From Larkinella rosea (lineage in GTDB: Bacteria; Bacteroidota; Bacteroidia; Cytophagales; Spirosomataceae), in assembly GCF_003858635.1 (NCBI RefSeq), contig NZ_RQJO01000007.1, forward strand, positions 559,941 to 623,940: a DNA stretch of 64,000 nt, in the 5' to 3' direction. A model generated the notes under the pieces. The model searched no databases. It worked only from the letters and a program-made list of their open reading frames with translations, and was not told where the DNA came from. This document shows, piece by piece, positions 1 to 64,000 of this stretch. Each line of letters opens with the position of its first letter. Within the stretch, counting starts at the first letter, position 1. Both the position numbers and the translations under genes were made by a program.

Positions 1-775
1 AAGGTAATTTGGGGAGCAGCACCGCAGGCTTCAACAGGTTTTTAACGTCCTGATTCCCGGTTTCCCAGTAGTCGATCAGCAGCAAAACAAAGGGCAGCAC
101 AACCGCCATTGCTTTTGACAGGCAGGATAAAATAAACAATAGAAAGGTGACAGTCAACCAGCTGAATGCACCGGTTTTTCGATACCGCAGGTAGGTCAGG
201 CAAGCAGACAAAAAGAAAAAAGTATAGAGCACGTCCTTGCGCTCCGAAACCCAGATGACTGATTCGACGTGCATCGGATGCAAGCCCCAAAGTGCAGCGA
301 CAAAAAGCCCCACCCACTGGTTTCGATGGCTTAACTGATAAGCAAAGAAGAAAACCAGAACCGTATTGAGCAGATGGAGGAGCGTATTGGTAACAATGAA
401 CGACGTGGCTCCGGGGCCAAAAAAAGCTGAATTGGCCGCCAGCGATGCCATCGTGAGCGGATGGAAATTCAAGGCGACTACCGACTTCAGGAGGGTTTGA
501 ACGTGGGCAGCAGTGGGTTCGAGAACGTACGGATTGCCAAATACATATTCCGAATCGTCCCAATCGACGAAGTCATTCTTAAAGCCCAGTGCATAAATGA
601 CAAAAATCGCCAGCAATGCCAGTCCGAGCCACAAATACATTGTATACCCCGGCCGTTCTGCCGACTTAGGGTTTGACTGAATGGGTTTTCCCGTTGCGGA
701 AACCGGTTGTTCGGAATGCTGGGTGGTAAACGGCCGTTGAACGGATCGTTGCCTGGTGGATTTGTGTTTTGCCAT
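1..775 (-). CDS. TMTC/PMT-like multipass membrane protein, 3' end outside the window
   Basis: The reverse strand is open from an ATG at 773-775 to the window edge (258 codons visible, no stop), so the gene is partial. A basic N-terminus precedes a membrane helix at about residues 45-63, then the acidic D-W-D-D loop (about 71-74) and further hydrophobic segments. The stretches LHPMHVESVIWVSERKDVLY (about 165-184) and LSKAMAVVLPFVLLLIDYW are typical of the DUF1736/TMTC family. These are multipass proteins related to protein O-mannosyltransferases, and they usually carry C-terminal tetratricopeptide repeats, which would lie off the window. By analogy the acidic loop is catalytic. The substrate is unknown. 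An apparent 173-codon frame at 42-563 is an antisense-frame shadow of this gene. Confidence 0.8.
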   Translation of the reverse strand, partial: MAKHKSTRQRSVQRPFTTQHSEQPVSATGKPIQSNPKSAERPGYTMYLWLGLALLAIFVIYALGFKNDFVDWDDSEYVFGNPYVLEPTAAHVQTLLKSVVALNFHPLTMASLAANSAFFGPGATSFIVTNTLLHLLNTVLVFFFAYQLSHRNQWVGLFVAALWGLHPMHVESVIWVSERKDVLYTFFFLSACLTYLRYRKTGAFSWLTVTFLLFILSCLSKAMAVVLPFVLLLIDYWETGNQDVKNLLKPAVLLPKLP

Positions 776-815
776 ACAAGAAAGATGTATTACAGGTAAT
801 CCACAAAAGACATAC

Positions 816-857
816 CATAAAAAAGCCCCGCCAGAGGAAATGCGGGGCTTTTTTATG
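816..857. terminator. Bidirectional rho-independent terminator
   Basis: A perfect 15-bp inverted repeat (816-830 and 843-857) with a 12-nt loop has a GCCCCG core flanked by A-runs and T-runs on both sides. It lies just downstream of the THX gene, which is read leftward, and upstream of the truncated membrane protein, so it separates the two transcripts. Confidence 0.85.
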
Positions 858-868
858 GAAAGAGCGGT

Positions 869-985
869 TTATTCTTTGACAACCTTCTCGACTTTCCCTT
901 GTTGATCTTTCAATTTTGGACGTTTTACGCCGTAGGAACCGCGCCAGATTTTACCGCGCCTGGTTTTAACATCTCCTTTTCCCAT
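869..985 (-). CDS. 30S ribosomal protein THX
   Basis: This 38-codon reading frame begins [19 protein letters not shown] and ends in a lysine-rich tail (KVEKVVKE). It matches the small basic THX (Thx/S31e-like) protein, which in Thermus sits in the head of the 30S subunit and is common as a stand-alone gene in Bacteroidetes. A GGAG-like purine run is absent upstream, as is usual for this phylum. The gene is followed at once by a strong hairpin terminator and so is probably a monocistron. The identification rests on length, charge and the conserved GKGDxKTxRGKxxxGSYG signature. Confidence 0.9.
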
Positions 986-1190
986 GTTCAAGTAGTTAGT
1001 TACACAGTCTTAACAGACTCATTAAACCGATTAAAAATCAATAAGAAATCATAATTAATCATTTAATCGCAATAATCAAAGGTCGTAAGCGCTATTCTTC
1101 GTTTCTGAATTGTTGTTCCGCTACCTCATATTTCCAAACATCTGTCTGAAACGGCGGTTTACCGGTACAGGAATTAACGCAAAAAGAGTC

Positions 1191-1982
1191 ATGACAACTA
1201 AGAACACACCGGTTTGGGACAAACCCGGAATCGGACAGCTGGAACCGGAAATCAGCGGCTCGAGCCGTATTAATGTAGGAGAAGAAGAGCGGGTTTGGTC
1301 GACCGTTGGCGGAGGGCTGCTGCTGACGTACGGCCTGAAAAGAGCTTCCATTGGCGGTATGTTGATTGCTGCAGTGGGGAGTTATCTGACGTATCGGGGC
1401 ATGTCGGGCAACTGTCCCATCAGCGAGGCCATCGGGCGCAATACGGCGGACGGCGAAACGACGGCCATCAAACCGATCGAAATTTCGGTTAGTCAAATTG
1501 TGTATAAACCCCGGAATGAAGTGTATCAGTACTGGCGTCAACTGGAAAACCTGCCCCGGTTTATGTCACATCTGAAGGAAGTCCGTCAACTCGATTCGAC
1601 GCACTCGCACTGGATTGCCCAGCTTTCGGACGGTGCCGTAGCCGAAGCCATTGGCGCGGTGGAGTGGGACGCGCAGATCATTCACGAGGTTCCGAACGAG
1701 CGACTGGTCTGGAAGTCGGTGGAAAACGCCCGGATCGATAACGCCGGCGAAGTTCAGTTTTCGGATTCGCCGGACGGTTTTGGTACGCAGATTCACGCGA
1801 CGATTCAATACCGCCCGCCCGTCGGACATTTGGGCAATGCGGTTATGAAACTATTCAATTCAACGTTTACGCAACTGATCGAAAAAGACCTGCATCGGTT
1901 TAAAGAAGTCATGGAAACGGACGAATCGAAAGCAGTTCAGGGCTTACTTCCGGCCGCTTCATCCGAAACCGCACAGCTTTAA
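1191..1982 (+). CDS. SRPBCC-domain protein with N-terminal DUF2892-like membrane segment
   Basis: The 263-residue frame is best started at the ATG at 1191 (MTTKNTPVWDK); an in-frame ATG at 1110 would add an atypical leader. Residues about 35-75 contain two short hydrophobic, glycine-rich segments and the motif GNCPISEAIG, as in DUF2892/YgaP-type membrane domains. From about residue 90 there is a START/SRPBCC fold typical of polyketide cyclase/dehydrase-like proteins (VYKPRNEVYQYWRQLENLPRF, then FGTQIHATIQYRPP). Such proteins bind hydrophobic ligands, but the ligand is unknown. The gene is flanked by a long intergenic region upstream and a hairpin-forming repeat downstream. Confidence 0.8.
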   Translation: MTTKNTPVWDKPGIGQLEPEISGSSRINVGEEERVWSTVGGGLLLTYGLKRASIGGMLIAAVGSYLTYRGMSGNCPISEAIGRNTADGETTAIKPIEISVSQIVYKPRNEVYQYWRQLENLPRFMSHLKEVRQLDSTHSHWIAQLSDGAVAEAIGAVEWDAQIIHEVPNERLVWKSVENARIDNAGEVQFSDSPDGFGTQIHATIQYRPPVGHLGNAVMKLFNSTFTQLIEKDLHRFKEVMETDESKAVQGLLPAASSETAQL

Positions 1983-1992
1983 TACAGTGAAG

Positions 1993-2056
1993 AATGAACA
2001 GTTCATCCTGAACTGGTAGTGGATCAGCTTTCATTGTTCATTGTGAATTGTTCATT
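1993..2056. repeat. Intergenic inverted repeat (AATGAACAGTTCA family)
   Basis: AATGAACAGTTCA (1993-2005) pairs with TGAATTGTTCATT (2044-2056) at 12 of 13 positions, and a T-run follows. It lies between the SRPBCC gene and the desaturase gene. It could terminate transcription or be a dispersed palindromic repeat. Confidence 0.55.
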
Positions 2057-2092
2057 TTTTTAAAAGAGAAGTAGGGGGAAAGCTGTCGATGA

Positions 2093-2953
2093 ATGTCATT
2101 AGTCCGAACAGTAAACAACGAACTAATGGATTTGCAACAGCTGGAGCGGGAATTACTCCCCTTGACTGCCTATGCCGCCCCGGTGGTGTTGGGCTCCGTA
2201 CTTCTGGAATTTTGGCTGACCCGTCACGATGAAGAACACCGGTACCAAAGCCGGGATTTCTGGTCGTCGGTCGGAATTGGCGCGGGCAGTTTGCTCATCA
2301 ATGCCATTCTTAAAACCGGTGTTTTTGGAATGGCATTGTTTTTTTACCGAATCATTCCCTGGCGCATCGAAACGCAGTGGTGGACGTGGCTGATAGCCTA
2401 TGCGCTGATCGATTTCTGCAATTATTTTGCGCACTTTATTGCCCACAAACAAAGGGTCTGGTGGGCAACACACGTGACGCATCACTCGTCCGAACACCTT
2501 AATTTCACGACGGCTTTCCGCAATTCGTGGACGCAACACCTCAAGCTGGTGTTCTTCATTCCGGCCTGGCTAACGGGCATTAATCCGGTGGTTATCCTGA
2601 CCTGCTATCAGATTGACCTGCTGTATCAGTTCTGGATACACACGGAAATGATCTACAAATTGCCGCGCTGGTTTGAGTTTTTCTTCGTTACGCCCTCTCA
2701 CCACCGGGTCCATCATGGCAGCAACGACCGGTATCTCGACAAAAATTTCGGCTCGTCGCTCATCATCTGGGACCGAATTTTCGGTACGTTCCAGGAAGAG
2801 GACGAACCCCCGGTATACGGCCTGACCAAACCGGTCGAATCTTTCAATCCGGTGTACCTGAACTTCCACGTCTGGGTCGATATTGGCCGGGATTTACGAA
2901 AAGCAAAATCCGTAAAGGAGGTTTGGTCCATTCTGTTTGGCCCCCCGGTTTAG
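2093..2953 (+). CDS. Sterol desaturase / fatty acid hydroxylase family protein
   Basis: This 286-residue integral membrane di-iron enzyme shows the family's histidine clusters: HFIAH (about 123-127), HVTHHSSEH (about 136-144) and HHRVHHG (about 206-212). Hydrophobic helices precede and separate them. Family members insert oxygen or a double bond into lipids such as sterols, carotenoids, alkylglycerols or sphingolipid precursors; the substrate here is not evident. An internal ATG at 2126 (MDLQQLERELLPL) is an alternative start. A short-chain dehydrogenase and an epimerase/dehydratase follow in the same direction, suggesting one lipid-modifying unit. Confidence 0.88.
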   Translation: MSLVRTVNNELMDLQQLERELLPLTAYAAPVVLGSVLLEFWLTRHDEEHRYQSRDFWSSVGIGAGSLLINAILKTGVFGMALFFYRIIPWRIETQWWTWLIAYALIDFCNYFAHFIAHKQRVWWATHVTHHSSEHLNFTTAFRNSWTQHLKLVFFIPAWLTGINPVVILTCYQIDLLYQFWIHTEMIYKLPRWFEFFFVTPSHHRVHHGSNDRYLDKNFGSSLIIWDRIFGTFQEEDEPPVYGLTKPVESFNPVYLNFHVWVDIGRDLRKAKSVKEVWSILFGPPV

Positions 2954-3014
2954 CTCCCAAAGTCTGAGCATTCGAAGCCCGATACGAGTAACAACTCATT
3001 CTGTCTATAGTATC

Positions 3015-4786: not shown

Positions 4787-4789
4787 ATG

Positions 4790-6534: not shown

Positions 6535-6788
6535 ACTGCTTTATTCCGTCGTGTATCGATTCAACTGACAAAACTGAGCAATCAAAACCACATCGCCACA
6601 CGACGCGGACGAATACCCCAAAACCACTGACGGAAAACCGCTCAGCCGTTACGAACTCGTTTGACCGCCCGAAACGTCATTCTGTCACCCAAATCGCCGG
6701 GTACGACCTGATTTGTTGCCAGCTCTTTCTTACAAATCCACATTTGTGCATAAAGTATTGAAAAGGTCGTTGACAACCGCTGAAAATC

Positions 6789-9233: not shown

Positions 9234-9241
9234 GGCATGCG

Positions 9242-9338
9242 GTTTTCGGTATACGGTTTTCAGTTTACGGTGACTAACGCGTTCTTTCCATCATTCTGAA
9301 TAGCGTGCGCCAGCCACCGTAAATCGTATACCGAAAAC
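9242..9338. repeat. Intergenic inverted repeat, TATACGGTTTTCGG family, copy 1
   Basis: The left arm 9242-9272 (GTTTTCGGTATACG, an 8-nt insert, then TTTACGGTG) pairs with the right arm 9315-9338 across a loop of about 42 nt. It sits exactly between two convergent genes and abuts the stop codon of the ABC-F gene. The same sequence family recurs at 15087-15199 and 45572-45673. It probably acts as a bidirectional terminator or a REP-like dispersed palindrome. Confidence 0.7.
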
Positions 9339-11024
<1,686 letters not shown>

Positions 11025-11034
11025 TTAAAAATGA

Positions 11035-11071: not shown

Positions 11072-11165
11072 GTACACATTCCCCTCATTAATGAAGCAGA
11101 CGGAAACAACTTACGCTATTACTTGCGATAACGTTGAAAACCGCTGACCGGGTCTTCGACCGCTG

Positions 11166-13534: not shown

Positions 13535-15046
13535 TTAGTACCTATTCTCAATCGTACCTTTCCCCGCATCCAGCCGCAAAACCTGCGTTACACAGGCCGG
13601 AATTTCTTCGGCATAGTGGGAAACATACAACAGCGTTCGCTCGGACGACTGACACAATTCATCGACCAGATCCCGAAAGCGGGCGATGTGGGGCGGGTCC
13701 AGATTCTGGCAGGGTTCATCCAGCACCAGTAGGGGCGGGTTTTTGGTCAATGCCCGGGCCAGCAGCACCCAGCGTTGTTCGCCCGTAGAAAGTTGCGCCA
13801 GGCGTTTGTCGCGGAGGTGCTGGATGCGCAGCAAATCCAGCATGAAATTCAGCTGGTCGGCTTGTTCCGTCGTCAGTTTCCGAAACAAACCTGCCGTATC
13901 GAACAGCCCGGACGCGACGACTTTCCACACCGGTTGCTCACGCGGGAAATACAGATGAAGTTCCGGCGACACAAAACCGATGTTGCGTTTGATGTCCCAG
14001 ATGCTCTCGCCGGTTCCGCGTTTTCGGTCAAACAGCACGAAATCATTGCGGTAACTCTGCGGATTGTCCGCCGTAATCAAGCTCAGCAGGGTCGATTTGC
14101 CCGAACCGTTGGGTCCCAAAACCGCCCATTTTTCGCCCCGCCGAACCGCCCAGTCGATCGAATCGAGCACCACTTTTTCGCCGTAACTGACCGTCACATC
14201 CTGCATTCGAACCGCATATTCAAACGGAATGGCGGAGGTGTTCAGCCAGCGTTGGAGCAGGGTTGGGTCAGTCAGGGTTTCCGGCGCGGATTCGGGTCCG
14301 GAAGGCCTCTCGTCCCTGGCGCCCTGCCAGCTGATCTGTCCGTCGGTCAGTTCAACCACGTGCGTGATGCAATCCGGTAGTTCACGGGGCGTCGTCACCA
14401 GCACCAGTGTGGTATCTTCGGCTGCAATCCGGTTTAAAATGCCGTGGAGACGTTCGCGGCTGCTGGTGTCCAGACCGCCAAAGGGGTTATCGAGTAATAG
14501 GATTTTGGGTCGGCGCAGCAACGAACGCGCCAGCAGCGTCCGCCGGGTTTCGCCGTTGGAAAGTGAAGTAAGGTGGCGATCCAGCAAGTGCGTAATGTGC
14601 ACCCAGCCCGCCACTTCGGCCAGCCATTCTTCCGAATAGGCCGGAGGAGGGAGGGAAACCGAATGCTCATTGACGGTTCCGGTGGGTTTGATCCGGTGCT
14701 GCAAAACTTCCCAAACCGTCGGGGATTCCCCGGCCGAATCGGCGTTGAACCGTTGCTGGTAATACCGGGCCGACGAAGCCACCTGACGATCAAACTGGTA
14801 GTCGTTGGCCACCTGCTCAACCATGTCGCGCAACACGCCGACGGGATGGGTATAGTGTCCGCCCGAAACCGGCAGCCGACCGCTTAAGGTATCGAGAAAC
14901 GAGCTTTTTCCGGAACTGGTGGGTCCTAAAACCGCCCAGTGTTCACCCGTTTTCAGGGTCCAGTCAATGTGTTGGAGAACAAGGCCGGTGGGTCGGCGAA
15001 CCGTGGCATTTTGTAAGGTAAGCAGGGGAACAATTGACATTTGCAT
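13535..15046 (-). CDS. ModF/PhrA-like protein with two ABC ATPase domains
   Basis: This 503-residue soluble protein has two fused ABC ATPase domains and no membrane segment. NBD1 has the Walker A variant GPTSSGKSS (about 40-48), signature LSNGE and Walker B ILLLDNPFGGLD. NBD2 has GPNGSGKSTLLSL, LSTGEQR and LVLDEPCQNLD. The order and the phrase WAVLGPNGSGKSTLLSLI are typical of ModF/YlmA/PhrA proteins, whose role is unclear despite links to molybdate and photorepair genes. A molybdoenzyme cluster lies about 18 kb away but is not linked. A TAAGTTTG -7-like box lies at 15061-15068. Confidence 0.85.
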   Translation of the reverse strand: MQMSIVPLLTLQNATVRRPTGLVLQHIDWTLKTGEHWAVLGPTSSGKSSFLDTLSGRLPVSGGHYTHPVGVLRDMVEQVANDYQFDRQVASSARYYQQRFNADSAGESPTVWEVLQHRIKPTGTVNEHSVSLPPPAYSEEWLAEVAGWVHITHLLDRHLTSLSNGETRRTLLARSLLRRPKILLLDNPFGGLDTSSRERLHGILNRIAAEDTTLVLVTTPRELPDCITHVVELTDGQISWQGARDERPSGPESAPETLTDPTLLQRWLNTSAIPFEYAVRMQDVTVSYGEKVVLDSIDWAVRRGEKWAVLGPNGSGKSTLLSLITADNPQSYRNDFVLFDRKRGTGESIWDIKRNIGFVSPELHLYFPREQPVWKVVASGLFDTAGLFRKLTTEQADQLNFMLDLLRIQHLRDKRLAQLSTGEQRWVLLARALTKNPPLLVLDEPCQNLDPPHIARFRDLVDELCQSSERTLLYVSHYAEEIPACVTQVLRLDAGKGTIENRY

Positions 15047-15086
15047 GCGGTTTTGGTCCCCAAACTTACAAAGACTGGCACAATAT

Positions 15087-15199
15087 GCGGTTTTCAGTTT
15101 ACGGTTTTTGGTATTCGGTTTTCAGCGTGCAATCCAATTCATAAGGAGACCCCATAATCGGTTATACCGAAAACCGTAAACCGTATATCAAAAAACCGC
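15087..15199. repeat. Intergenic inverted repeat, TATACGGTTTTCGG family, copy 2
   Basis: The left arm 15087-15125 (begins GCGGTTTTCAGTTTACGG) pairs imperfectly with the right arm 15159-15199 around a loop of about 33 nt. It fills most of the gap between two leftward genes. Its sub-blocks GGTTTTCAGTTTACGG and TTTTCGGTATA are shared with copy 1. Confidence 0.65.
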
Positions 15200-15206
15200 A
15201 CACCGT

Positions 15207-15917
15207 CTACACTTCCGCTTTTGCTGGCTTTTTCTTCTTTCGGGAACTCCGTTTGGCCGAAACCGCAGCCCGTTGCAGGCCCCGGGTCAGGGCAAAGGCT
15301 ACCGGAACCGGCAGCGCCGACAGCAGAACTTCGTCGAATCGGCGGGCAATATCGGCAATGGTTTGGGCTTTATCCGTGCCGTTGATGATGCCGCGCGCTT
15401 TTTCGTATTCCGGCGGGAGGTTGTCTTTAATGAATTGACCGAGCCGTTTGCCGGTAAACCAGCCTTCCTTCATGCCCTGTACCGCAATCCGGTACGCCAG
15501 ATCCGGTTTTTTAGCCAGATCCGGATGGGCAATCAGATCGACATGGAGAAACTGACTGGCCCGCGCGTAATTGGTGCGCCCGGTCAGCTGCACGTAGCCC
15601 CGGCCCTTGAAGCGGGCGCCGTCGCCGGGCTGCGTATTGCCCAGAACTTTCCCGACGGTGGTTCCCGGCCCGTAGAGTTTATTGAAACGGTCGTCGGTGC
15701 CAAATTCGTCGATGGGTTCCATTGTGTGGGCGGTTTCCCATTTGAAAGTGGCCAGGCAGTACGCCAACTGCCGACGGTCTTTCTCGGAATCGGTAAAGCG
15801 ATCGTCCTGTTCAATCTGGTCGATCAGGAAGTCGATGGCATCGACCAGCGGCTGCGTTAATTTGCCGAAACGGGTGCGGTAAGCGTCGAAGAATTTTTTG
15901 CGATTGAAGGGTTGCAT
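15207..15917 (-). CDS. GH19-like chitinase/endolysin-type muramidase
   Basis: The 236-residue protein contains the lysozyme-like fold of phage-type GH19 enzymes: FKWETAHTMEPIDEFG (catalytic Glu, about 59-74), then GARFKGRGYVQLTGRTNYA (about 99-117) and ANNxR-like downstream positions. There is no obvious signal peptide, and the C-terminus is a basic tail (KRSSRKKKKPAKAEV). Such proteins occur as phage lysins, but similar stand-alone genes are common in Bacteroidetes. No other phage gene is adjacent, so a prophage is not supported. Confidence 0.78.
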   Translation of the reverse strand: MQPFNRKKFFDAYRTRFGKLTQPLVDAIDFLIDQIEQDDRFTDSEKDRRQLAYCLATFKWETAHTMEPIDEFGTDDRFNKLYGPGTTVGKVLGNTQPGDGARFKGRGYVQLTGRTNYARASQFLHVDLIAHPDLAKKPDLAYRIAVQGMKEGWFTGKRLGQFIKDNLPPEYEKARGIINGTDKAQTIADIARRFDEVLLSALPVPVAFALTRGLQRAAVSAKRSSRKKKKPAKAEV

Positions 15918-16008
15918 GAGTCAAAATCAATTGAGAGTGAGTCAAACGAATACCCCCCTAAGTTGACGCAAATTCAACGGATTACGGCAAGATTTTTATT
16001 TAACGGTT

Positions 16009-19000
16009 TTACTGCAAAAGTCGAAGTAAGTCGTTCTTAGTCAATGATTTCAACAGGGCCGTATCGGTTTTGACGAGATGATCGGCCAGTTCTTTTTTGG
16101 AATCCTGCAACGCCAGAATTTTCTCTTCAATCGTATCGGGACAAATCAGGCGCACCGCCACTACGTTTTTCTTCTGGCCAATGCGGTAACTCCGGTCGAT
16201 GGCCTGGTTTTCCACCGCCGGATTCCACCACGGATCGACCAGATAGACGTAGTCTGCCTGCGTCAGATTCAGACCCGTACCACCGGCTTTCAGGCTGATT
16301 AAAAACACCCGAACCGAGCTGTCTTCCTGAAACCGATTCACGCTGGTGGCCCGATGCGTGGTTTGTCCAGTGAGGTATTCGAAGCGGATGTTCCTGAACT
16401 CCAGTTCTTTCCGGATCAGGTCGAGCATGGAAACGAACTGCGAAAAAACCAGGATTTTGTGCTGGGGCGATTTGCTTTCGATCTGTTCCACCAGCATCTC
16501 GATTTTCGCTGACGCATTGCCATAGAATTCGTCGTCGTTGAGCAAAACCGGGGAGTTGCAGATTTGCCGGAGCTTGGTAAGTCCCTGGAGTACGTGCAAA
16601 CGGGACCGGGGAATGTCGCCTTCTTTCGTGCTCAGTAGAAAATTGCGAAATTCCTGTTCGTACGCGTCGTAAACTTTGCGCTGTTCCGGGCCCATTTCGC
16701 AATGAATGATCATCTCGGTTTTGTCGGGCAATTCGGTGGCTACCTGAGCCTTGGTCCGCCGTAACAGGAATGGCCTGATTTTCTGCTGGAGTTCGCGGGC
16801 GCGTTTCCGATCATCAAACTTGTCGATCGGTGTCGAATAATGCGCCCGGAAATGGTGGAAATTTCCCAGCAAACCGGGGCAGGCAAACGAGAGCTGACCG
16901 AACAAATCGAAGGTATTGTTTTCAATCGGCGTTCCCGTCAGCACCAGTTTGTTGCGCGACTGGAGCAGCCGGGCGGCATGATACCGCTGGGATTCCGGAT
17001 TTTTAATGGCCTGCGATTCGTCCAGAATAATGTAGTTAAAGGTGCATTCTTTCAAAAAACGCACACTGGAAACCAGCGTACCGTATGACGTCAGGATGAT
17101 GTCGAACGAATCGAGATCCGTTTCTTTCAGGATGCGATTGGCGCCGTGGAAGGTATACAACCGGAGCGTTGGCGCAAACTTCGCGACTTCGGCCTGCCAG
17201 TTGAACAATAGCGAGGTCGGCACGATAATCAGGTTGGCACCGGAGCGGTTTTTGGCTTTCTGAATCAATAGAAACGCGATGATCTGAAGCGTTTTGCCCA
17301 GCCCCATGTCATCGGCCAGGCAGCCGCCAAAACCGATTTCGTCCAGAAAATTGAGCCAGTTCAAACCCTCTTTCTGGTAGTCGCGCAGGGTCGCCCGTAA
17401 CTCGGCCGGTATTTCCACCGGGCGGATGGATTGAAAATCAGCAAATTGAGTCGTTAGGGTCTGCAACTGGTTTTTCGCATCGGAGCTGAGCTGGCCTTCG
17501 TCGTACAATTCCTGCATTTGTGAAAAACCGATGCGGGGTGTTCGAATCCGCTCTTCTACAACCTCACCCGCCAGAAAATAGCCGGAAAACCGTTCCAGCC
17601 ACTCGACGGGCAATACGCCCAGGGTGCCGTCGTCGAGCGGCACAAACCGGCTCTTGTTTTTTACGGCTTTGTGCAGGTGTTTCAGCGTGACTTTCTGCTT
17701 GCCGAACGACAGCCCGAGTTCCGTTTCGAACCAGTTCAAACCGCTGTTCACCACGACGGAAACCTTCGCTTTGTACGGATTCAGGCGGTTATTTTGCAGA
17801 GAATTAAAGCCCAGAATCCGAATGTCCTGATTGTGCCAGGCTTCAAACGCGTTCAAAAACCAATCTTCATCCAGCACGTGCTTCCGGTGTAAATAAAAAT
17901 AGGTCTGGCCGAGCTGGTTCTGAAAATCAGGATGTTGAGCCGCCACGGCCATGGTGAACTGGATTTCGGCGGCATCGTCGCGGGCTACCGAAAACGGTTT
18001 TCCCCGGCTATCAGTCGAATAAATCGGTTTTTTGGACATCACCGGCACTTCCACTTTTCCGTATTTCATCACCGGCGTCAGAATGACGTAATCTTCGGAC
18101 GCGCTCAGGTAAAGAAGCCGCTCGTATTGCTGATGAAAACCGCCCTCTTCGAGTTGCGCGGGCGTTGCCGGTTGCAGGTGTGCGTAGTCGATTCGGATCG
18201 TGTCCTCCAAGGGGGCTAAAACCGCCTGCCGGAAGTCTTCAAACTTCGACTCATGAATAACAATTTTATCGTTTTTCCGGCTGAAATAATCGATAACGCG
18301 CAGGGAATCAGGTTTGTTGATTAGATGTAACTCGTCGTTGAGGAAGATGAAATAATCGTATTTCAGAACGAGGTTGTGGATCGACTGCGGTTTTTCGATG
18401 GTTAGATGGCCTTCGAGCTCATAGAAATGATGAACCGGACGGACCAATAAATGCAGGTCGGTCGAGAGCGTTTTCACCGACACCGGCACAAGTGAATGGG
18501 ACGTAATGTTTTCGGAAACGCGGGTGTCGTGGTAATAAAATGCCAGTTTGGCGGGATTTTCGACCACCAGCTGCAAATCTTTCAGATCGGTTTCTTCCTT
18601 TTTCGTTCGATGCGGATTCTGGAATTTCGCCAGTGCCGAATAAAACTTCAGTTCGCTCACTTGGTCCAGTTGGGTGAGCAATTCGAGTGGTTGCAGGGGC
18701 GTCAGCGGGCTCTTGATTTTGCCATCCCGGGCCGTTGGGGCCTCAAACAGTTCCAGTGAGAAATTGTCGTTGTACCGGTGTTTGGTAAAAACAACAATGC
18801 GTTTTTGCGGGGACGGTTGTCCATCCGAAACCGGAACTAGCGACCGGGGCTTCGCGATCAGTTGGGTAGTCAGGGCCTCTTTATCGCCTGAAGTCAACCG
18901 AAGCAGGCCGGGTTGTCTGGGCCGGATGGTGAACGACCGGGGCTCGTAGTCGACACGGAAATAATCGTCCAGACAAGGTTCATTTTCCAGACCGTAATCC

Positions 19001-27789: not shown

Positions 27790-29868
27790 ATGAAAAAATA
27801 CCTCTTCTGTCTGATTGCTTTTGCGGGGTCGGTTGCTCAGGCACAAATGCGGGTAAATCTGACCGGTTTTCAGAAACAAAACGGCACCACCGTCGTCAGC
27901 CAGGGCCATAATCTGGTGGTGAACTGGCCGGCAACTGCGACGGAAAAAGGGAAGCTGGTGATTAATCTGGAAAAAGAAAAACCGCTTTTCAACAGCATTC
28001 AGCTCTCGCAGCAGGGGGCGTTCAAAGAGATCGCCAAAGCGCTCGACCCGGCGTTTGTGCTGACCGTAGGCAAACGGGATTTGATTTCCCAGAATGGCTG
28101 GAACATCTTTTTCGACAAGACGAACAAGCTGCCCCACAAGTCGTACGCCGTTGCGTTGGACAAACGGAGCGCGAGCGTCACGACCGTCGGAACCCGCACC
28201 GTCGTCCGGATTTCCGAAGTTCAGGCAGCTACGTTCAAGGGCGACATTGAAATTACAGTGTACAACGGTAGCCCGCTGTTCAACGTGGCCGCCGTAATGG
28301 CGACAGAGGTGGATTCGACGGCCATTTTGTACGACGCCGGTCTGGTTACGAAAGTGCCGGTCTGGAAAAATATCGCGTGGTCGGATACTGAAAATAAGTT
28401 ACAAAGTATTCCGGCCGATTTAAAAGAACCCAATAAGGCGCAGACGGTCAAATACCGCACCATCATCGGCGTCAGCAATCAGGGTAGCCTGGCGGTTTTT
28501 CCGGCGCCCCACCAGTATTTCTATCCGCTGGACGAAGCGTATAACCTGGATTTTACCTGGCACGGTTCGGGGTATCGCAGCCTCGTTCCGGATTTCGGGA
28601 TCGGGATTCGGCAGGATCTGATGGGCGACCGGCGCTGGGTTCCCTGGGTCAATGCTCCGCCGAAAACCCGCCAGCGGCTCAACTTCTTCTGTCTGTTAAG
28701 CACCGGCGACCCAGGCAAAACGCTGGACGAAGTCAAGAAATTTACGCACAACGACAAGTACCCGACGGTGGCCGGTTACAAAACCATGTCGAGCCATTTT
28801 CACAATGAGTTCACGATGAGCGTGGTACTGGCAAACAAACCGATTCCCGAAAAACCGGCATTCGTAGATGTGTTCAAAAACGCGGGGGTCGACATCGTGC
28901 ACCTGGCGGAATTCCACGGCCCCGGCCACCCCAAAGGTCCGGACAGCTTGCGACTGCGGGAATTGAAAGCCCTGTTTGAACAGTGTAAACGATTGTCTAC
29001 CAAAGACTTTTTGTTGTTACCGGGCGAGGAGCCCAACAACTTTTTCGGTGGTCACTGGCTGGAGTTTTTCCCCAAACCGGTCTACTGGATCATGGCCCGA
29101 AAAGCGGAAATGCCCTTTGTGACGCAAGACCCGACCTATGGAAAAGTGTACCGGATTGCCGACAAAAACGATATGCTGAAGTTGCTGCAGCTGGAAAACG
29201 GCCTGGCCTGGACGGCCCACGCCCGCACGAAAGGCTCGACCGGGTATCCGGATAAATACAAGGAAGAGGAGTTTTTTAAATCCGATCATTTCTTCGGGGC
29301 CGCCTGGAAAAACATTCCGGCCGATTTGTCGGAACCGCGCCTAAGCCGCCGGGTGCTGGATTTGATGGACGATATGGCGAATTGGGGCCACAAAAAACAC
29401 GTCATCGCCGAGTCGGATATTTTTACAATGGAACCGGAAAATGAAACCTACGCCCACCTCAACGTCAACTATTTGCAGTTGGATAAATTGCCGGATTTCA
29501 GTCAGGGCTGGCAGCCGATTCTGGATGCAATGAAGCAGGGTAAATTTTTCGTGACCACCGGCGAGGTGCTGTTCCCGGCGTTTTCAGTGAACGGAAAAGG
29601 TGCCGGTGAAACCATAAAACTGCCGGAAGACGGAAAAACCGCCATCGCGCTGGACGTGGACTGGACCTTCCCGCTGACGTTTGCCGAAATCGTTTCCGGC
29701 GACGGCAAAGCGGTTTTCCGCGAGCGAATCGACCTGACCAAAACGCTGCCGTTTGGCAAGCAGAAATTCACGTTCAACACCAACCTGAAAGGCAAAAAAT
29801 GGGTGCGCGTGGAAGTCTGGGATGCCGCTGTGAATGGCGCGTTTACGCAGCAGGTGTGGTTGGAGTGA
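27790..29868 (+). CDS. Secreted PHP-domain-like protein of unknown function
   Basis: The 692-residue protein has a signal peptide (cut after SVAQA). The N-terminal half is beta-rich and resembles a carbohydrate-active sandwich. From about residue 330 it contains spaced histidine and acidic motifs of a PHP-type metal site: SSHFHNEF, VHLAEFHGPGHP, LLPGEEPNNFFGGHW and AWTAHARTKGS. A C-terminal beta-sandwich (about 600-690) ends the protein. PHP domains hydrolyse phosphoesters or related bonds using a trinuclear metal centre. The substrate cannot be read from sequence. The GH78-like gene follows 117 bp downstream in the same direction, suggesting work on a shared glycan. Confidence 0.6.
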   Translation: MKKYLFCLIAFAGSVAQAQMRVNLTGFQKQNGTTVVSQGHNLVVNWPATATEKGKLVINLEKEKPLFNSIQLSQQGAFKEIAKALDPAFVLTVGKRDLISQNGWNIFFDKTNKLPHKSYAVALDKRSASVTTVGTRTVVRISEVQAATFKGDIEITVYNGSPLFNVAAVMATEVDSTAILYDAGLVTKVPVWKNIAWSDTENKLQSIPADLKEPNKAQTVKYRTIIGVSNQGSLAVFPAPHQYFYPLDEAYNLDFTWHGSGYRSLVPDFGIGIRQDLMGDRRWVPWVNAPPKTRQRLNFFCLLSTGDPGKTLDEVKKFTHNDKYPTVAGYKTMSSHFHNEFTMSVVLANKPIPEKPAFVDVFKNAGVDIVHLAEFHGPGHPKGPDSLRLRELKALFEQCKRLSTKDFLLLPGEEPNNFFGGHWLEFFPKPVYWIMARKAEMPFVTQDPTYGKVYRIADKNDMLKLLQLENGLAWTAHARTKGSTGYPDKYKEEEFFKSDHFFGAAWKNIPADLSEPRLSRRVLDLMDDMANWGHKKHVIAESDIFTMEPENETYAHLNVNYLQLDKLPDFSQGWQPILDAMKQGKFFVTTGEVLFPAFSVNGKGAGETIKLPEDGKTAIALDVDWTFPLTFAEIVSGDGKAVFRERIDLTKTLPFGKQKFTFNTNLKGKKWVRVEVWDAAVNGAFTQQVWLE

Positions 29869-29870
29869 AT

Positions 29871-29898
29871 GACCATTGACGATGGACCATTGACGATG
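29871..29898. repeat. Tandem 14-bp repeat
   Basis: GACCATTGACGATG occurs twice back to back, followed by GATGGTC/CCATCGTCCATG fragments in inverted orientation up to about 29933. It lies in the gap between the PHP-like and GH78-like genes and could form a hairpin terminator. Confidence 0.55.
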
Positions 29899-29985
29899 GT
29901 CGGCGATCGATGGTCAGCCGCCCATCGTCCATGTTTACCAATTATTTTTGTTCCTTAATTTGAAAAATGCCCTTAAGTAAGTACC

Positions 29986-31737
29986 ATGAAAAAAACGTAT
30001 ACCTTCCTTTTCCTTTTTTGCTTTATTCTGAAAGGGTTTTCGCAGGCCCAGCTTCCGCCCATTTTTGAAACCGCGCGCGCCCAGCAGGCGCAGTCGGAAG
30101 CCACGGTTCGGCGGTTTTTGTCGCCCGTTCGCATTTTGTGGCAAACCGGAACCATTCGCAATGCCGAACGACTGCTGAAAACCGGGAACGGTCAGGCCGA
30201 TCTGTCGGGGAAAGACCTGTGTTCGCTGAAAAGCGACGGGAATGGCAAACCGAGTCTGCTGCTCGATTTTGGGCGGGAATTGCACGGCGGTTTGCAGATC
30301 GTGACGGGGCAGTGGAAAGAAAGCAAACCGATTACGGTGCGCATCCGGTTCGGCGAATCGGCCAGTGAAGCCATGTCGACCATCGAACCAAAACAGAACG
30401 CGACCAACGACCACGCCATTCGGGATCTGACGGTGCAGGTACCGTGGCTGGGCAAACTCGAAATCGGGAATACCGGTTTTCGTTTCGTACGCATCGATCT
30501 CGTGGATGGCGATACGGAACTGTTATTGAAAGAGTTACGCGCGATTTTTGTTTTTCGGGATATTCCGTACCTTGGCTCGTTTCACTCCAGCGACGACCTA
30601 CTGAACAAAATCTGGGCGACCGGAGCCTACACCGTGCACCTCAACATGCAGGACTACCTCTGGGACGGCATCAAGCGCGACCGGCTGGTGTGGGTAGGGG
30701 ATATGCACCCCGAAGTCGCGACCATCAATGCGGTTTTTGGGTACAACGAAGTGGTGCCGAAAAGCCTGGATCTGGCGCGCGACATCACGCCCTTGCCCGG
30801 TTGGATGAACGGCATCAGTACGTATTCGATGTGGTGGATTCTGATTCAGAAAGACTGGTATCAGCACAATGGGAAGCTCGATTACCTGAAACAGCAGCAG
30901 CCGTATCTGGTGAAACTGGTGGATCTGCTGGTTCAGAAAATTGACGATAAAAATAGCGAAAAACTGGACGGAACGCGGTTTCTGGATTGGCCGTCGAGCG
31001 AAAATCCGAAGGGGATTCACGCCGGTTTGCAGGCGATGATGGTGCTTTCGCTGAATGCCGCCGGGGAGTTGAGCCGCATGTTGAACGATCCGGCAACGGC
31101 CAAAAAATGCACGGACGCCGTTGCCCGGCTGAAGCAATACGTTCCTGACCCGAACAACTCCAAGCAGGGCGCAGCATTGCTTGCGCTATCGGGTCTGGTG
31201 CCCGCCGAAAAAGCCAACAGAGAAGTGCTGGCCGTTAACGGTGCCCACAACTTTTCGACCTTTTACGGTTATTACATGCTGCAGGCGCAGGCCCAGGCCG
31301 GAGAATACAAAACCGCTCTGGCTAACATCCGCGAGTTCTGGGGCGGCATGCTCAAGCTGGGTGCTACCACGTTCTGGGAGGACTTTAACCTGGATTGGGT
31401 GAAGAATTCGGGTCGTATCGATGAGCTGGTGAAGGAAGGGCAGAAAGACATCCACGGCGATTGCGGGGCCTACTGTTACGTCGGTTTCCGGCACAGTCTG
31501 GCACACGGCTGGGCGTCCGGCCCGACACCCTGGCTGACGGAACACGTGCTGGGCATCAAGGTGGTGGAGCCTGGTTGCAAAGCCATCAAAATTGAGCCGC
31601 ATCTCGAAGATTTGACGTTTGCCGAAGGCACCTTTCCGACGCCGTACGGAATCGTCAAAGTGAAACACACCAAACTGGCCAGCGGTAAAATTCAGTCGGA
31701 GGTGTCGGGGCCGAAGGAGGTTCGGATTATTCGCTGA
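29986..31737 (+). CDS. GH78-like alpha-L-rhamnosidase family protein
   Basis: A signal peptide (MKKTYTFLFLFCFILKGFSQ) leads into a beta-sandwich with LLLDFGRELHGGLQIV. An (alpha/alpha)6 barrel follows in which YLWDGIKRDRLVWVGDMHPE (about 222-241) matches the catalytic-acid region of GH78. HSLAHGWASGPTPWLTEHVLG (about 505-525) is the usual late motif, and a C-terminal beta domain ends the protein. At 583 residues it is shorter than many GH78 enzymes, lacking extra N-terminal modules. It should cleave L-rhamnose or a related terminal sugar in the periplasm. The PHP-like gene lies directly upstream. Confidence 0.82.
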   Translation: MKKTYTFLFLFCFILKGFSQAQLPPIFETARAQQAQSEATVRRFLSPVRILWQTGTIRNAERLLKTGNGQADLSGKDLCSLKSDGNGKPSLLLDFGRELHGGLQIVTGQWKESKPITVRIRFGESASEAMSTIEPKQNATNDHAIRDLTVQVPWLGKLEIGNTGFRFVRIDLVDGDTELLLKELRAIFVFRDIPYLGSFHSSDDLLNKIWATGAYTVHLNMQDYLWDGIKRDRLVWVGDMHPEVATINAVFGYNEVVPKSLDLARDITPLPGWMNGISTYSMWWILIQKDWYQHNGKLDYLKQQQPYLVKLVDLLVQKIDDKNSEKLDGTRFLDWPSSENPKGIHAGLQAMMVLSLNAAGELSRMLNDPATAKKCTDAVARLKQYVPDPNNSKQGAALLALSGLVPAEKANREVLAVNGAHNFSTFYGYYMLQAQAQAGEYKTALANIREFWGGMLKLGATTFWEDFNLDWVKNSGRIDELVKEGQKDIHGDCGAYCYVGFRHSLAHGWASGPTPWLTEHVLGIKVVEPGCKAIKIEPHLEDLTFAEGTFPTPYGIVKVKHTKLASGKIQSEVSGPKEVRIIR

Positions 31738-36836: not shown

Positions 36837-36894
36837 TTTCAGGTTTAGGAAAAAGTGTGATTAACCAAAGGTAGCAACAAACTTGATGGGAACA

Positions 36895-36962
36895 CGGATT
36901 GAACGGATGAAAAGGATCAGAACGGATTTTAACGTACGAATCCGTTGCATCCGTTCAATCCG
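36895..36962. repeat. Inverted repeat, CGGATTGAACGGATG family
   Basis: CGGATTGAACGGATG at 36895-36909 and AACGGATT at about 36921-36928 pair with 36939-36962 as an interrupted stem. It lies between the divergent paoA-like and lacI-like genes and may insulate the two promoters. Confidence 0.6.
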
Positions 36963-37013
36963 CATTTCGATCCAAATTCAAATAATAAAACTAAATAAAA
37001 AAAATATACCATT

Positions 37014-44203: not shown

Positions 44204-44303
44204 TTATTTCGCGGAGTTAAGCGGAGTAAAATAGAGTTACGCGGAGATTAACGTAAAAAACTTCGCTTAACTCTTTACTTCTCCGCTTAACTCCGCGAAA
44301 TAA
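44204..44303. repeat. 100-nt inverted repeat with perfect 23-bp arms
   Basis: The arm at 44204-44226 (TTATTTCGCGGAGTTAAGCG...) is the exact reverse complement of 44281-44303. Inner blocks (GAGTTACGCGGAG against CTTCGCTTAACTC) also pair, so the whole gap could fold into one hairpin. It lies between susD and the dgoD-like gene, and a half copy occurs at 13501-13530. Confidence 0.75.
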
Positions 44304-45571: not shown

Positions 45572-45673
45572 GGTATACGGTTATTGGTATACGGTTTTCG
45601 GTGGCTGATGCGCGCTTTCGCAAAACGAATAGGATGCCATTCACCGAAAACCGTATACAAAAAGCCGTATACC
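45572..45673. repeat. Intergenic inverted repeat, TATACGGTTTTCGG family, copy 3
   Basis: Two 32-base arms (45572-45603 and 45642-45673) pair at 29 positions. Each contains two TATACGG units, and the inner end reads GTATACGGTTTTCGGTG. The 38-nt loop begins GCTGATGCGCGCT, similar to the reverse complement of the copy 1 loop (GCTGGCGCACGCT), so loops as well as stems are related. Confidence 0.78.
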
Positions 45674-53099: not shown

Positions 53100-53144
53100 G
53101 CCGGTGGATACAATCGGAGGTAGCTATGGAGGTAGTGGGTATGA

Positions 53145-54770: not shown

Positions 54771-54956
54771 CAGCATATCAACAGCCCACCTGTTTACGGT
54801 AAGCGAAAGGATTCCGGAACATAGAACGCACCAGCTTTCAGCCGTATACGTTCAATCTTTCTTCGTTGGATAGGTACTTTGGAAGGCCGCTTTCAGTAGT
54901 TGAAAGTTGCCGGATTCTTTTCTAGCCAAACTGATCAACTTTCCCTGAACCGACCC

Positions 54957-57055: not shown

Positions 57056-57067
57056 GGCAATCCCTGA

Positions 57068-59086: not shown

Positions 59087-59179
59087 TCTTTTTTATTTTA
59101 AATAGGCGTATGTCTAACTAATTTCTCCACGTCGTGAAAAACCGCTTGTTTTCCAGTCAATCCATTCTAAACCAATTTA

Positions 59180-60913: not shown

Positions 60914-61115
60914 TTTACATCATCGGATAAAAAGATTTTTCCATGCATTCGGGTAAAATTACCAAGGGTTTTATAAAATCCTACGTTTTCCTCGAATCTA
61001 ACCATTTTGTATCCGTTCCCAGGCGAAATACGTTCACACTTTGCTGACAATAAATCAGTTATTTATAAGCGATCCGGGTTTGGATTCTGATCTGAATGAT
61101 TTTTAGAGAATTTAT

Positions 61116-61583
61116 TCAGAACGGATTCTGGAGGATAAAACCGTTCCAGTCGAGCGCGGATTGGTAGAAATATTCCCGCCAGTTGCCGATCAGGCCTTCC
61201 CGGATTTTGACACTGACCATGCCGTGCGTCGTGGAACCGTAGGTCATCGAAAATTCGCCGGAACCGACCTGCGTTTGCTCGTCGAAGGTGAGGTGATGCC
61301 AGACCATTTGCACCACTTTCGGTCGCCCTTTCCAGCCACCGAAAAACTCGAAAATCCGGTCGCGACCCCGGTAAATCTGCTTATTGGGTGGTTCGGAATA
61401 GATGGCGTCCAGCGTAAAACAGTCAGCGGCTTTGCGACCGTTGTTTTCGTTCAAGCCGGCCGCAACCGTCTGCATCAGATGAATAAACTCTGCTCGATTG
61501 ATCGGTTTTCGGTTGGATAACTGCGCTCGGGAATCGATCAGAAAACCCAAAAAGAAAGTCAGAACAAGTACGGTTTTTTTCAT
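61116..61583 (-). CDS. Secreted NTF2-like (SnoaL) protein
   Basis: The 155-residue protein has a signal peptide (cut near LIDSRAQ) and an NTF2/SnoaL-type cone fold: NNGRKAADCFTLDAIYSEPP, IYRGRDRIFEFFGGW and VQMVWHHLTFDEQTQVGSGEFS. Proteins of this fold range from enzymes to ligand binders, and no catalytic residue can be picked out with certainty. A TATTTTTG box at 61627-61634 on the reverse strand may be its promoter. It lies 56 bp downstream of the oxidoreductase gene. Confidence 0.78.
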   Translation of the reverse strand: MKKTVLVLTFFLGFLIDSRAQLSNRKPINRAEFIHLMQTVAAGLNENNGRKAADCFTLDAIYSEPPNKQIYRGRDRIFEFFGGWKGRPKVVQMVWHHLTFDEQTQVGSGEFSMTYGSTTHGMVSVKIREGLIGNWREYFYQSALDWNGFILQNPF

Positions 61584-61639
61584 TTCAACGAACGGAAAGC
61601 GCTATAGATGGAGCAACGACGCGCTGCAAAAATACATTG

Positions 61640-63298
61640 TCAGGCGGCATCATTTTGTTCGAGTATTTCTTTAGCCGCCCGAATGCCCTGGTAAAATGCT
61701 TCTTCAAAAATCGAAATACCGCTGAGGTCGGAATGGGCAAAAAAGAGCTTGCCGTTGATTGGCTGAGCGGCTTTCCGACGCGACTCGCCCCAGATAAAAC
61801 CGGGTGCAGGTACAATCATGCCGTGTCCCCAAATCCAGCAATCGACGGCGTGAATGTAGGGCATTACGCCCGGATGAGCCGTTTCCAGCTCGGTCAGTAG
61901 CTGCTGAACCCAGGTTTCGTAGGCCGTCTCGTACGCTTTTTGCCGGGCCGTCGCGGGCGGTCCCTGAACGAGCGGCCAGTAAACCGTGATCACTTTCTGA
62001 GGCTCCGCAATATTTAAATGCTGGTGAGTAGCGGTAACGTAACCGACCGACGGGCTTCCGTAAATAACATTATCCCAGCACAACGGCAAACCGCGTCCCT
62101 GCGGTAAACCACTGACGGTCAGATTCGCTACGAGCCAGGGTGAATACTGAAAATCGGCTGAAACCCGATTTTTAAGCAGATTCTGGGTAATGAACTGGGG
62201 AGTGGCCAGCAGAACCTTCCGGGCTTGAATCGAAACCGTTTCCTTATTCAGGACATCATAACACAAAACCTGAACCCCGCGCTCGTTTTCCTGAACCGAA
62301 AAGACCAGCCTATTTGAATGAACGGGTGATTGTGCCTGCTGTTCCAACTGCCTGACCAGAAAGTTGTTGCCTTCGGGCCAGGTCAGCACCGCGTTCGGTT
62401 CGGCATTGGCCGCAACGCCTTTTCGGGAGGCAAAATAATGCAGTCCCGCCCAGGCCGAGGTATTCTCCAGCGTGCTGCCGTAATCATCCTTGCAGCCGTA
62501 TTCCAGAAACCAACGCAAATACGTTGAGGTAAATTGCTGCTCGTTCAGGTAGGTTTCAAAGGAAACCGCATCCCACTTTCGGTAGTTCTCGTCGGTTGAG
62601 GAGTTGCCGAGTGGGATGGCAAATGCATCTTTGCCGTCACTCCCTCTGGCATGTTTCAGTTGTTCGATCAGTTTGAAAAACCGGGTGATTTGCTGTTTGT
62701 CGGCTTCCGGGACACCTACTTCAGGCACCAGACCCGCCTGCCAGTGGCCGTTGATAAAAAGCCGTTCTTCGGGATCGTGGCATAGGTAGTACTCATTGTA
62801 AATCGGCAAACCGGCCGGATCAAAACCGGTAATGGCATGGCATTCTTTCAGAAAATCAAGCAGTTCCCGATTACGCAGGTCTGGAATGGGCAGGTAATGC
62901 GCGCCCCAGGGATAGGCCGAAATCGCATTCTGACCACTGACGGAGTTGCCGCCGGTCTGATTGTCCATTTCGACCAGCAAAACATCGCGCAACCCGTGTT
63001 GCCACAACCACCGCCGGGCCGACAACCCGGCGATTCCACCTCCCACAATCAGGACTTCCGTTTCCAGCGATCGGCTCGGTAAAGGCAGTTTTTCGGGATT
63101 TCGCAGCAAATGCCCGGTCTGGTGATTGGCACCGGCCATGCCACCTTGAATGTGGTTATGGGAATTTATTGAATGGCAGGCGTTTAAGCCAGTTGAGGTG
63201 GCCAGCAAGGCGGTAAATCCCAAACCGGCGGCCTGTTCGAGAAACTGCCGGCGTCCGGGTGATTCCGGCGAATCAGTGGGCGTAGGGGGTCCAGTCAT
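61640..63298 (-). CDS. Tat-leader FAD-dependent amine-oxidase-like protein
   Basis: The 552-residue protein has a leader with twin arginines (GRRQFLEQAAGLGFTALLA) followed by LNAC, possibly a lipobox. The Rossmann FAD motif is VLIVGGGIAGLSARRWLW, with VLLVEMDNQTGGNS after it and a C-terminal LFFAHSDLSGISIFEEAFYQG closing the flavin site. The overall plan is that of amine oxidase/protoporphyrinogen-oxidase-like flavoproteins. It overlaps the spermidine synthase gene by 26 bases, so a role in polyamine oxidation or export-linked metabolism is plausible but inferred. Confidence 0.8.
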   Translation of the reverse strand: MTGPPTPTDSPESPGRRQFLEQAAGLGFTALLATSTGLNACHSINSHNHIQGGMAGANHQTGHLLRNPEKLPLPSRSLETEVLIVGGGIAGLSARRWLWQHGLRDVLLVEMDNQTGGNSVSGQNAISAYPWGAHYLPIPDLRNRELLDFLKECHAITGFDPAGLPIYNEYYLCHDPEERLFINGHWQAGLVPEVGVPEADKQQITRFFKLIEQLKHARGSDGKDAFAIPLGNSSTDENYRKWDAVSFETYLNEQQFTSTYLRWFLEYGCKDDYGSTLENTSAWAGLHYFASRKGVAANAEPNAVLTWPEGNNFLVRQLEQQAQSPVHSNRLVFSVQENERGVQVLCYDVLNKETVSIQARKVLLATPQFITQNLLKNRVSADFQYSPWLVANLTVSGLPQGRGLPLCWDNVIYGSPSVGYVTATHQHLNIAEPQKVITVYWPLVQGPPATARQKAYETAYETWVQQLLTELETAHPGVMPYIHAVDCWIWGHGMIVPAPGFIWGESRRKAAQPINGKLFFAHSDLSGISIFEEAFYQGIRAAKEILEQNDAA

Positions 63299-64000
63299 CT
63301 TCGAAATAATGCACCAGCACCTGGTTGTTGAGTTTGTTGATTTCGGTCGGAACCTCGGCCATGTCGGGCGGAAAATTCAGCATGTCGTGAATTGTTTTCG
63401 ACGTAATAAACCGCAGACCGGGCGGCAACGGCCCGTCGCCCCGCCAGTGGCGGTTGCGCAAAAGCATCACGTACCCCCATTCGCCAAACGAGGGGATATA
63501 GGCGTGGTACGGAATGGTTTGAAAACCGCAAGCTGCAATGGTGTTTCGAATGCACCAGAATGATTGCCGGGCAATGTAGGGCGAGGTCGATTGCACCACC
63601 GCCAGCCCCCCGGTTTTTAGCAGGCGGTTTAACTCCTGATAAAACGAGGTACTGTATAATTTGCCGATGGAATAATTCGATGGGTCGGGAAAGTCCACCA
63701 CGATCAAATCATACTGACTGGTGTCCTGACGGACAAAATTGTAGGCATCGGTATTGATTATCTGTACGTTAGGCGACAGTAACGAGCGGTGATTGAGCTT
63801 CAGCAGCAGTTCATTTTCCCGAAAAAGCGTGGTCATACCCGGGTCGAGATCAACCAGCGTGACCGACTGAACGGTTTTGTACTTCAGGATTTCACGAACC
63901 GCCAAACCGTCGCCACCGCCCAGAACGAGCACCCGGTTTGCGTTGGGAAGCGCCTGCATCGCGGGGTGGACGAGGGCTTCGTGGTAGCGGTATTCGTCGG
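63273..64000 (-). CDS. Polyamine aminopropyltransferase (spermidine synthase-like), 5' end outside the window
   Basis: The frame is open to the window edge and the residues before the first internal ATG read DEYRYHEALVHPAM, the conserved active-site entry of spermidine synthases. The gene therefore continues past position 64000. The SAM-type fold is visible in VLVLGGGDGLAVREIL, VDLDPGMTTLF, INTDAYNFV and DLIVVDFPDPSNYSIGKLYS. C-terminal residues resemble long, membrane-anchored variants rather than the soluble SpeE, so the missing part may hold membrane helices (inference). The 3' end overlaps the flavoprotein gene. Confidence 0.88.
   Translation of the reverse strand, partial: DEYRYHEALVHPAMQALPNANRVLVLGGGDGLAVREILKYKTVQSVTLVDLDPGMTTLFRENELLLKLNHRSLLSPNVQIINTDAYNFVRQDTSQYDLIVVDFPDPSNYSIGKLYSTSFYQELNRLLKTGGLAVVQSTSPYIARQSFWCIRNTIAACGFQTIPYHAYIPSFGEWGYVMLLRNRHWRGDGPLPPGLRFITSKTIHDMLNFPPDMAEVPTEINKLNNQVLVHYFEDDWTPYAH

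Follow-up and report, generated by a model that had tools for sequence, protein, structure and literature searches.

AAAACCG, a seven-base word over-represented throughout the Larkinella rosea genome and conserved between species of its genus

The window analysed here, that is, the whole 64,000-nt stretch at positions 559941-623940 of contig C10 in the Larkinella rosea genome (G000; 8,174,678 bases in 18 contigs), had an ordinary Bacteroidota appearance, with SusC/RagA, GH127, rhamnosidase-like, and ABC transporter genes. The sole named match found for one of its proteins was from Spirosoma telluris (68% identity; records very near the window were possibly left out), and the Rfam and tRNA scans of the 64 kb returned zero matches and zero tRNAs, respectively. 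The subject of this report is the word AAAACCG, with its complement CGGTTTT, which was present at 166 places over positions 1..64000 (82 on the plus strand and 84 on the minus strand), in genes as well as between them. This amounts to one copy per 386 bp, compared to 26.6 copies expected from the dinucleotides. A preliminary description of this DNA had listed example positions of the word and counted its copies by eye. A copy was found within 23 bp of all 16 examples and within 10 bp of 15 of them. The dense stretch that it had chosen (13973..18394) held 23 copies within 13.9-19.1 kb, where approximately 24 had been counted, and the second one (27864..31315) held 11 copies within 27.8-31.7 kb, as counted.

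The word had also been proposed as a genome signature, and the excess indeed extended beyond the window. The whole G000 genome contained 9738 forward and 9806 reverse copies, i.e., 19,544 copies in 8.17 Mb or 2.39/kb, in a strand-symmetric manner, compared to 2,984 copies (1501 and 1483) of the reversed word, which is a crude control since both words differ in other biases. The excess was smaller when the expectation was taken from trinucleotides (500 copies observed vs 154.9 expected in 204 kb of G000). A Markov model of order 5, named beforehand as a check that could overturn the claim, gave an expectation of 150 copies in the window, which was near the observed 166; however, this figure is no test of over-representation because the model contains the word's own 6-mers. 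The over-representation of AAAACCG was confirmed to be real and genome-wide.

A bias in codons, codon pairs, or translation might produce such an excess. Relative to composition, G000 had somewhat more of each of the six dipeptides encodable by the word (KT, NR, KP, RF, VF, and GF) than the genomes outside the genus (for example, 1.30 vs 1.02 for KT and 1.32 vs 0.95 for RF), which favours this explanation, though a force acting at the DNA level would give the same; as a set they were not the most raised dipeptides (ranks 2, 6, 16, 27, 47, and 48 of 269). Genes were called by a greedy longest-open-reading-frame rule, and those containing N were dropped in the shuffle and realised-fraction analyses that followed the 604-kb shuffle. 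When the synonymous codons were shuffled within each of 465 G000 genes (604 kb sampled), 358±17 copies remained, compared to 1301 observed, and codon or codon-pair bias as the main cause was thereby refuted. The 46 genes called in the window behaved likewise, with 146 copies vs 39.7±5.2 after shuffling (maximum 56 in 500 shuffles), in agreement with the earlier argument that codon-pair bias is insufficient. The occurrence in both orientations, in all reading frames, and in intergenic DNA, as first described, was upheld. All six frame/strand classes exceeded the shuffle expectation in the 604 kb of G000, the pooled antisense classes (733 vs 132.4) were more enriched than the sense classes (568 vs 225.3), and the intergenic density (2.93/kb) was higher than the coding one (2.40/kb). 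We therefore give almost no credence to an origin in codon use or translation. A transcription-oriented signal was rejected as the main cause as well, all six classes being enriched and retained.

The amino acids allowed AAAACCG at 2428 sites in G000, and the word was used at 1283 of these (53%), compared to 34 of 426 (8%) in three genomes outside the genus. The corresponding numbers were 156/273 in G248, 416/875 in G242, G247, and G245 together, 104/283 in G244, 517/1899 in G241 and G243 together, and 53/281 in G246. Letter-permutations of the word were scored in G000 up to a total of 45 that offered 200 or more opportunities each, AAAACCG included; the median realised fraction was 0.055 and the next best was 0.226. 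With respect to single-base neighbours, 16 of the 21 ranged from 0.65 to 1.55 times the synonymous expectation, and five were at 1.8 to 2.5, namely the three with another first base and the two in which T replaces the A at position 2 or 3. A-to-G changes at positions 2 and 3 were depleted (0.68 and 0.65), and AAAACGG was at 0.70. A deamination or very-short-patch repair bias was rejected as the main cause since the expected depletion of C-to-T neighbours was absent (AAAATCG 0.99 and AAAACTG 1.14; AAAACCA was at 1.47).

The excess was present in all nine genomes of the genus, with approximately 775 to 2391 copies/Mb and 3.3 to 6.5 times the reversed control. The family comparison comprised 222 genomes, and none of the 213 outside the genus reached the genus density; the densest of these noticed in the family table was G313 (approximately 627/Mb), and the largest ratio to the reversed control, 3.1 in G396 (3214 vs 1038), was near the genus minimum of 3.3. 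In the order comparison (241 genomes, with G000 as the only member of its genus), G000 alone stood out. Both tables were read by eye, and the ratios and densities were computed by hand. The ratio of observed copies to synonymous shuffles was 2.3 to 4.0 in all nine genus genomes. Outside the genus, where 160 kb from three genomes were sampled for the shuffle and realised-fraction tests, it was 0.57 (G351), 1.35 (G233), and 1.02 (G402), and a 23-kb stretch of Spirosoma telluris had 8 copies vs 6.8 expected. Dialects were observed: AATACCG was 3.4-fold in G244 and 2.7 to 3.3-fold in G241, G243, and G246, and AAAGCCG was 2.0 to 2.4-fold in G241, G243, and G244. No paper on AAAACCG or on such a signal in Spirosoma relatives was found among the matches listed from the open PMC literature.

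Chi and KOPS are short over-represented words read by DNA-processing machines, and seven bases, the length of AAAACCG, is a usual length for Chi. An oriented segregation or recombination motif of this kind had been among the functions first considered, and it was not sustained. In G243, the single complete genome sampled (one contig, 20 places), forward and reverse copies numbered 103 and 103 at positive GC skew and 104 and 118 at negative GC skew, and 221 of the 428 sampled copies were on the leading strand as judged by GC-skew side, so that a replication-oriented motif was rejected as the main cause. In G000, the distances between copies were exponential (coefficient of variation 1.02), the fractions of gaps below 50, 100, and 200 bp being 0.115, 0.217, and 0.395 vs 0.116, 0.219, and 0.390 for an exponential. 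The orientations of neighbouring copies were paired about randomly (711 same, 381 and 380 opposite), and regular spacing and paired orientation were likewise rejected. Counts in 5-kb bins were somewhat above Poisson (variance/mean 1.49), with none of 120 bins empty. AAAACCG thus resembles Chi and KOPS as a short over-represented word but differs in having no strand polarity; since no dependence of its retention on spacing was detected either (see below), we regard a Chi-like or KOPS-like motif as very improbable.

Conservation, gains, and losses were assessed with G242 as the reference, for which 260,779 aligned bases were available with G247, 175,659 with G244, 105,340 with G000, and 47,694 with G245. 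The identity of synonymous third positions between G242 and G000 was approximately 0.60 in both flanks of the word and 0.84 inside its seven bases; the values were approximately 64% and 85% against G244 and approximately 84% and 94% against G247. All seven positions were better conserved than the bases just outside, and seven control words had inside identities of 0.47 to 0.80 against G244 and G000, the range against G000 being 0.62 to 0.79. In the codon-matched test, 360 of 411 sites were retained against G247 (279.5 expected, z 8.9, loss ratio 0.39), 153 of 213 against G244 (82.8 expected, z 10.4, loss ratio 0.46), and 85 of 115 against G000 (40.6 expected, z 9.0, loss ratio 0.40). Of 1500 random words drawn, those with at least 20 sites were scored (764, 346, and 89 against G247, G244, and G000, respectively). 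Their mean z was 0.45, 0.68, and 0.89, with standard deviations of 1.16 to 1.30 and maxima of 4.7, 4.4, and 3.9, and each word of maximal z overlapped AAAACCG (GAAAACC, AAAAACC). An uncorrected protein-pair comparison, superseded by the codon-matched test, pointed in the same direction (25/63 to 31/68 sites kept against G244, G242, G247, and G245, compared to approximately 0.20 for all 7-mers). In none of the six frame/strand classes did the loss ratio reach 1, and 40 of 49 intergenic copies were kept against G247, where the background was approximately 0.56. In genes, the conservation of AAAACCG between species thus forms a sharply bounded footprint of 7 bp. The conservation across related genomes that the preliminary description had suggested checking was found both in the excess throughout the genus and in the copies kept.

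This conservation showed no detected dependence on spacing or on neighbouring copies. The loss ratios for short, middle, and long gaps were 0.39, 0.43, and 0.35 against G247 and 0.38, 0.52, and 0.48 against G244, and copies with near and far neighbours were lost at a similar ratio, the crowded ones if anything at a lower one. These data bear on the suggestion of a DNA-uptake-like word, spread by preferential uptake in the manner of the DNA uptake sequence (DUS) or uptake signal sequence (USS). Thousands of copies in both orientations would suit uptake, and so would species dialects, which are described for the Neisseriaceae DUS (PMC3630211). However, at a density of approximately one copy per 400 bp, every fragment of a kilobase would carry copies anyway, and by our own expectation isolated copies should then be kept best. 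Dense and sparse copies were instead retained about equally, the spacing was random, and the footprint was only 7 bp. Since density dependence and polarity are both absent, uptake drive is disfavoured along with Chi, and we consider it improbable.

The reading that we favour, at a probability of roughly 0.42, is that AAAACCG is a genus-specific word maintained copy by copy because a cellular factor reads it as double-stranded DNA, each copy bringing a small independent advantage. In its favour are the surplus over synonymous shuffles, the high realised fraction, the 7-bp footprint, the codon-matched retention, the lowered losses in every frame/strand class, the exponential spacing, and the occurrence in all nine genus genomes. 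The reader would most simply be an abundant sequence-specific DNA-binding protein of the nucleoid type, and a nucleoid-protein-like site, one of the functions first proposed, is a possible, putative role of the word. Each copy may add a selection-like advantage of the order of codon-usage selection, with a scaled strength of approximately 1.2 to 2.6. This range is our own arithmetic under mutation-selection-drift with equilibrium assumed, and it comprises approximately 2.6 from the standing odds (approximately 13-fold vs outside the genus), approximately 1.3 from the shuffle excess, and approximately 1.2 to 1.6 from the loss ratio. The side preferences of some species, such as AATACCG, are what a drifting specificity of the factor would give.

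Several observations speak against such a reader. The factor is postulated, and no protein was singled out. In the trio G242, G247, and G245, 39 losses were counted vs 11 gains, and the letter-permuted words were in balance (356 and 355); the system is therefore off equilibrium there. In the small polarised codon-matched test, losses numbered 38 vs 74.8 expected (ratio 0.51), and the gains, which selection predicts to be raised, were not significantly so (8 vs 5.9 expected). Of 32 control words in this test, three unrelated ones had ratios lower than 0.51 (CTGGAAA 0.33, CATCGAC 0.37, and CGACAAA 0.44), and two overlapping ones were lower as well (AAACCGT 0.35 and CAAACCG 0.47). Random words with few sites also reached lower loss ratios in the pairwise tests (0.26 with 38 sites against G247; 0.38 with 23 and 25 sites against G244 and G000, respectively). 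Furthermore, intergenic conservation was not clear with G244 (8 of 25 copies kept, background 0.27). As a separate observation, CATCGAC, with its polarised loss ratio of 0.37, also exceeded its synonymous shuffles in genes of G000 (261 vs 109) and of other genus genomes.

The surplus of losses was seen with other outgroups too. When polarised by G244 or G000, G242 and G247 showed 51 losses and 12 gains. On the G244 branch, losses and gains numbered 20 and 2 when G000 was the third genome and 118 and 48 when G242 and G247 were used; on the G000 branch, the counts varied with the partner (23 and 15, or 15 and 12). A part of this excess is expected, as requiring outgroups to agree selects for stable words, and CCG words suffer a general loss in the trio (losses to gains 1.7 to 2.0). 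For G242, G245, G247, and G244, we read the remainder as a force that seems to have weakened since the words accumulated and to be weaker today than in the G000 lineage.

The gain data are also compatible with a mutation coldspot, in which the seven bases mutate less, being protected or better repaired, and the copies accumulate passively. Such a coldspot would account for the loss ratios of 0.39 to 0.51 and for gains that were not significantly raised, and the gains were too few for the polarised test to tell it apart from selection. It fits less well that all seven positions were more conserved than the adjoining bases, and that loss ratios of 0.4 to 0.5 alone yield a 2 to 2.5-fold excess, compared to the 3.2 to 3.7-fold shuffle excess in G242, G245, and G247. 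The odds of use in G000 were moreover approximately 13-fold those outside the genus, and the undepleted C-to-T neighbours argue against a coldspot arising through deamination or short-patch repair. We judge a coldspot unlikely.

Biased conversion or repair that preserves or copies the word, spreading it without usefulness, predicts the same site-by-site pattern, free of spacing, strand, and frame. A model of this type, a methylation-directed mismatch-repair ratchet, has been published for the cyanobacterial word HIP1 (PMC4390886); by that model the word should saturate at around one site per 1000 nt, which is lower than the 2.39/kb observed here. Four methyltransferase families were searched in the nine genus genomes, and none occurred in all of them: PF01555 was in 7 (6 over the cut-off), PF00145 in 4, PF07669 in 8, and PF02086 in 4. 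This distribution makes a HIP1-like methylation cause somewhat less likely, and conversion or repair appears to us a doubtful explanation, to be kept in view.

A bolder form of the favoured reading, in which a copy-reading factor acts, can be put forward tentatively: a genus-specific, undescribed factor may have rewritten the genome, so that approximately half of the permitted sites carry AAAACCG, each copy is favoured whatever its spacing, strand, frame, or transcription, and dialects evolve between species. If this holds, AAAACCG would serve as a dense code across the whole chromosome and would differ in this from uptake, Chi, and segregation words. The data also show that synonymous sites in the genus are far from neutral. 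Nine species with graded strength and dialects, together with family relatives without the word, make the force measurable and allow the responsible factor to be sought by comparison. On the whole, the interpretation in the preliminary description was partly supported.

The word also occurs within inverted intergenic elements of the window. The arms of one (9240..9338) consist of 7-bp units (CGGTTTT, CGGTATA, CAGTTTA, and others) including AAAACCG copies, a second one (15088..15183) is likewise built of 7-bp units with AAAACCG copies, and an inverted repeat at 45572..45673 has 32-nt arms (91% complementary) with GGTATACGGTT units and AAAACCG copies. Dispersed heptad hairpins of this kind numbered 12 in the 604 kb of G000 and 8 and 7 in 380 kb of G242 and G247, and 25 of the 27 were intergenic. 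Their arms are 7-bp units (CGGTTTT, CAGTTTA, CGGTATT, and others), including AAAACCG and its variants, and many surround a GGCTGACGC / GCGTCAGCC core. The pattern was found zero times in the sampled stretches of G241, G243, G244, G246, G248, G402, and G233; a looser one-arm pattern was found once each in G248, G244, and G402. Repeat arrays as the source of the word were rejected, the heptad arrays holding 24 of 1482 copies. The palindrome GTATAC, seen as a heptad hairpin unit, was at 25 places in the window (50 when counted on both strands vs 10 expected). Further long imperfect inverted repeats were located at 44204-44303 and 36885-36972, with internal short units that were GCGGAGTTAA-like and ACGGATTGA-like.

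A missing word was observed besides. GMGGCG (GCGGCG and GAGGCG) was present 0 times in the window, compared to 69 for GKGGCG, and the whole 8.17-Mb G000 genome had 10 GAGGCG and 16 GCGGCG vs 4006 of the control GCGGAG. GAGGCG was near zero in the genera g1, g3, g7, and g111 (at most 78 copies in 48 of 51 genomes), the exceptions being G423 (426), G414 (205), and G406 (147), and the other genera in the table, again read by eye, had no near-zero genome. GCGGCG was counted over whole genomes in the nine g1 genomes only (7 to 121 copies). GMGGCG seems to be a word forbidden in a clade that extends beyond the AAAACCG genus, and no paper on its absence was found in the open PMC literature.

Among known systems, DUS and USS are nearest in variation. 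The words of Neisseriaceae and Pasteurellaceae have thousands of copies and species dialects (PMC3630211, PMC1939737). AAAACCG shares both, being strand-symmetric here, and differs in its shorter footprint and in having no detected density dependence. HIP1 (GCGATCGC) is nearest in kind. It is a short word of cyanobacteria, iterated genome-wide, limited in lineage, variable in strength and form between species, and unsettled in function (PMC4390886); palindromic and GC-rich, it is eight bases long, goes together with GATC/CGATCG methyltransferases, and occurs approximately once per kb. Such iterated genome words are still without a settled function. AAAACCG is likewise an iterated word that varies between species, and its strong genome-wide over-representation is limited to a lineage as that of HIP1 is; in contrast, it is a 7-base non-palindrome at 2.39/kb, and neither the palindromic form nor the density of one per 1000 nt was found.

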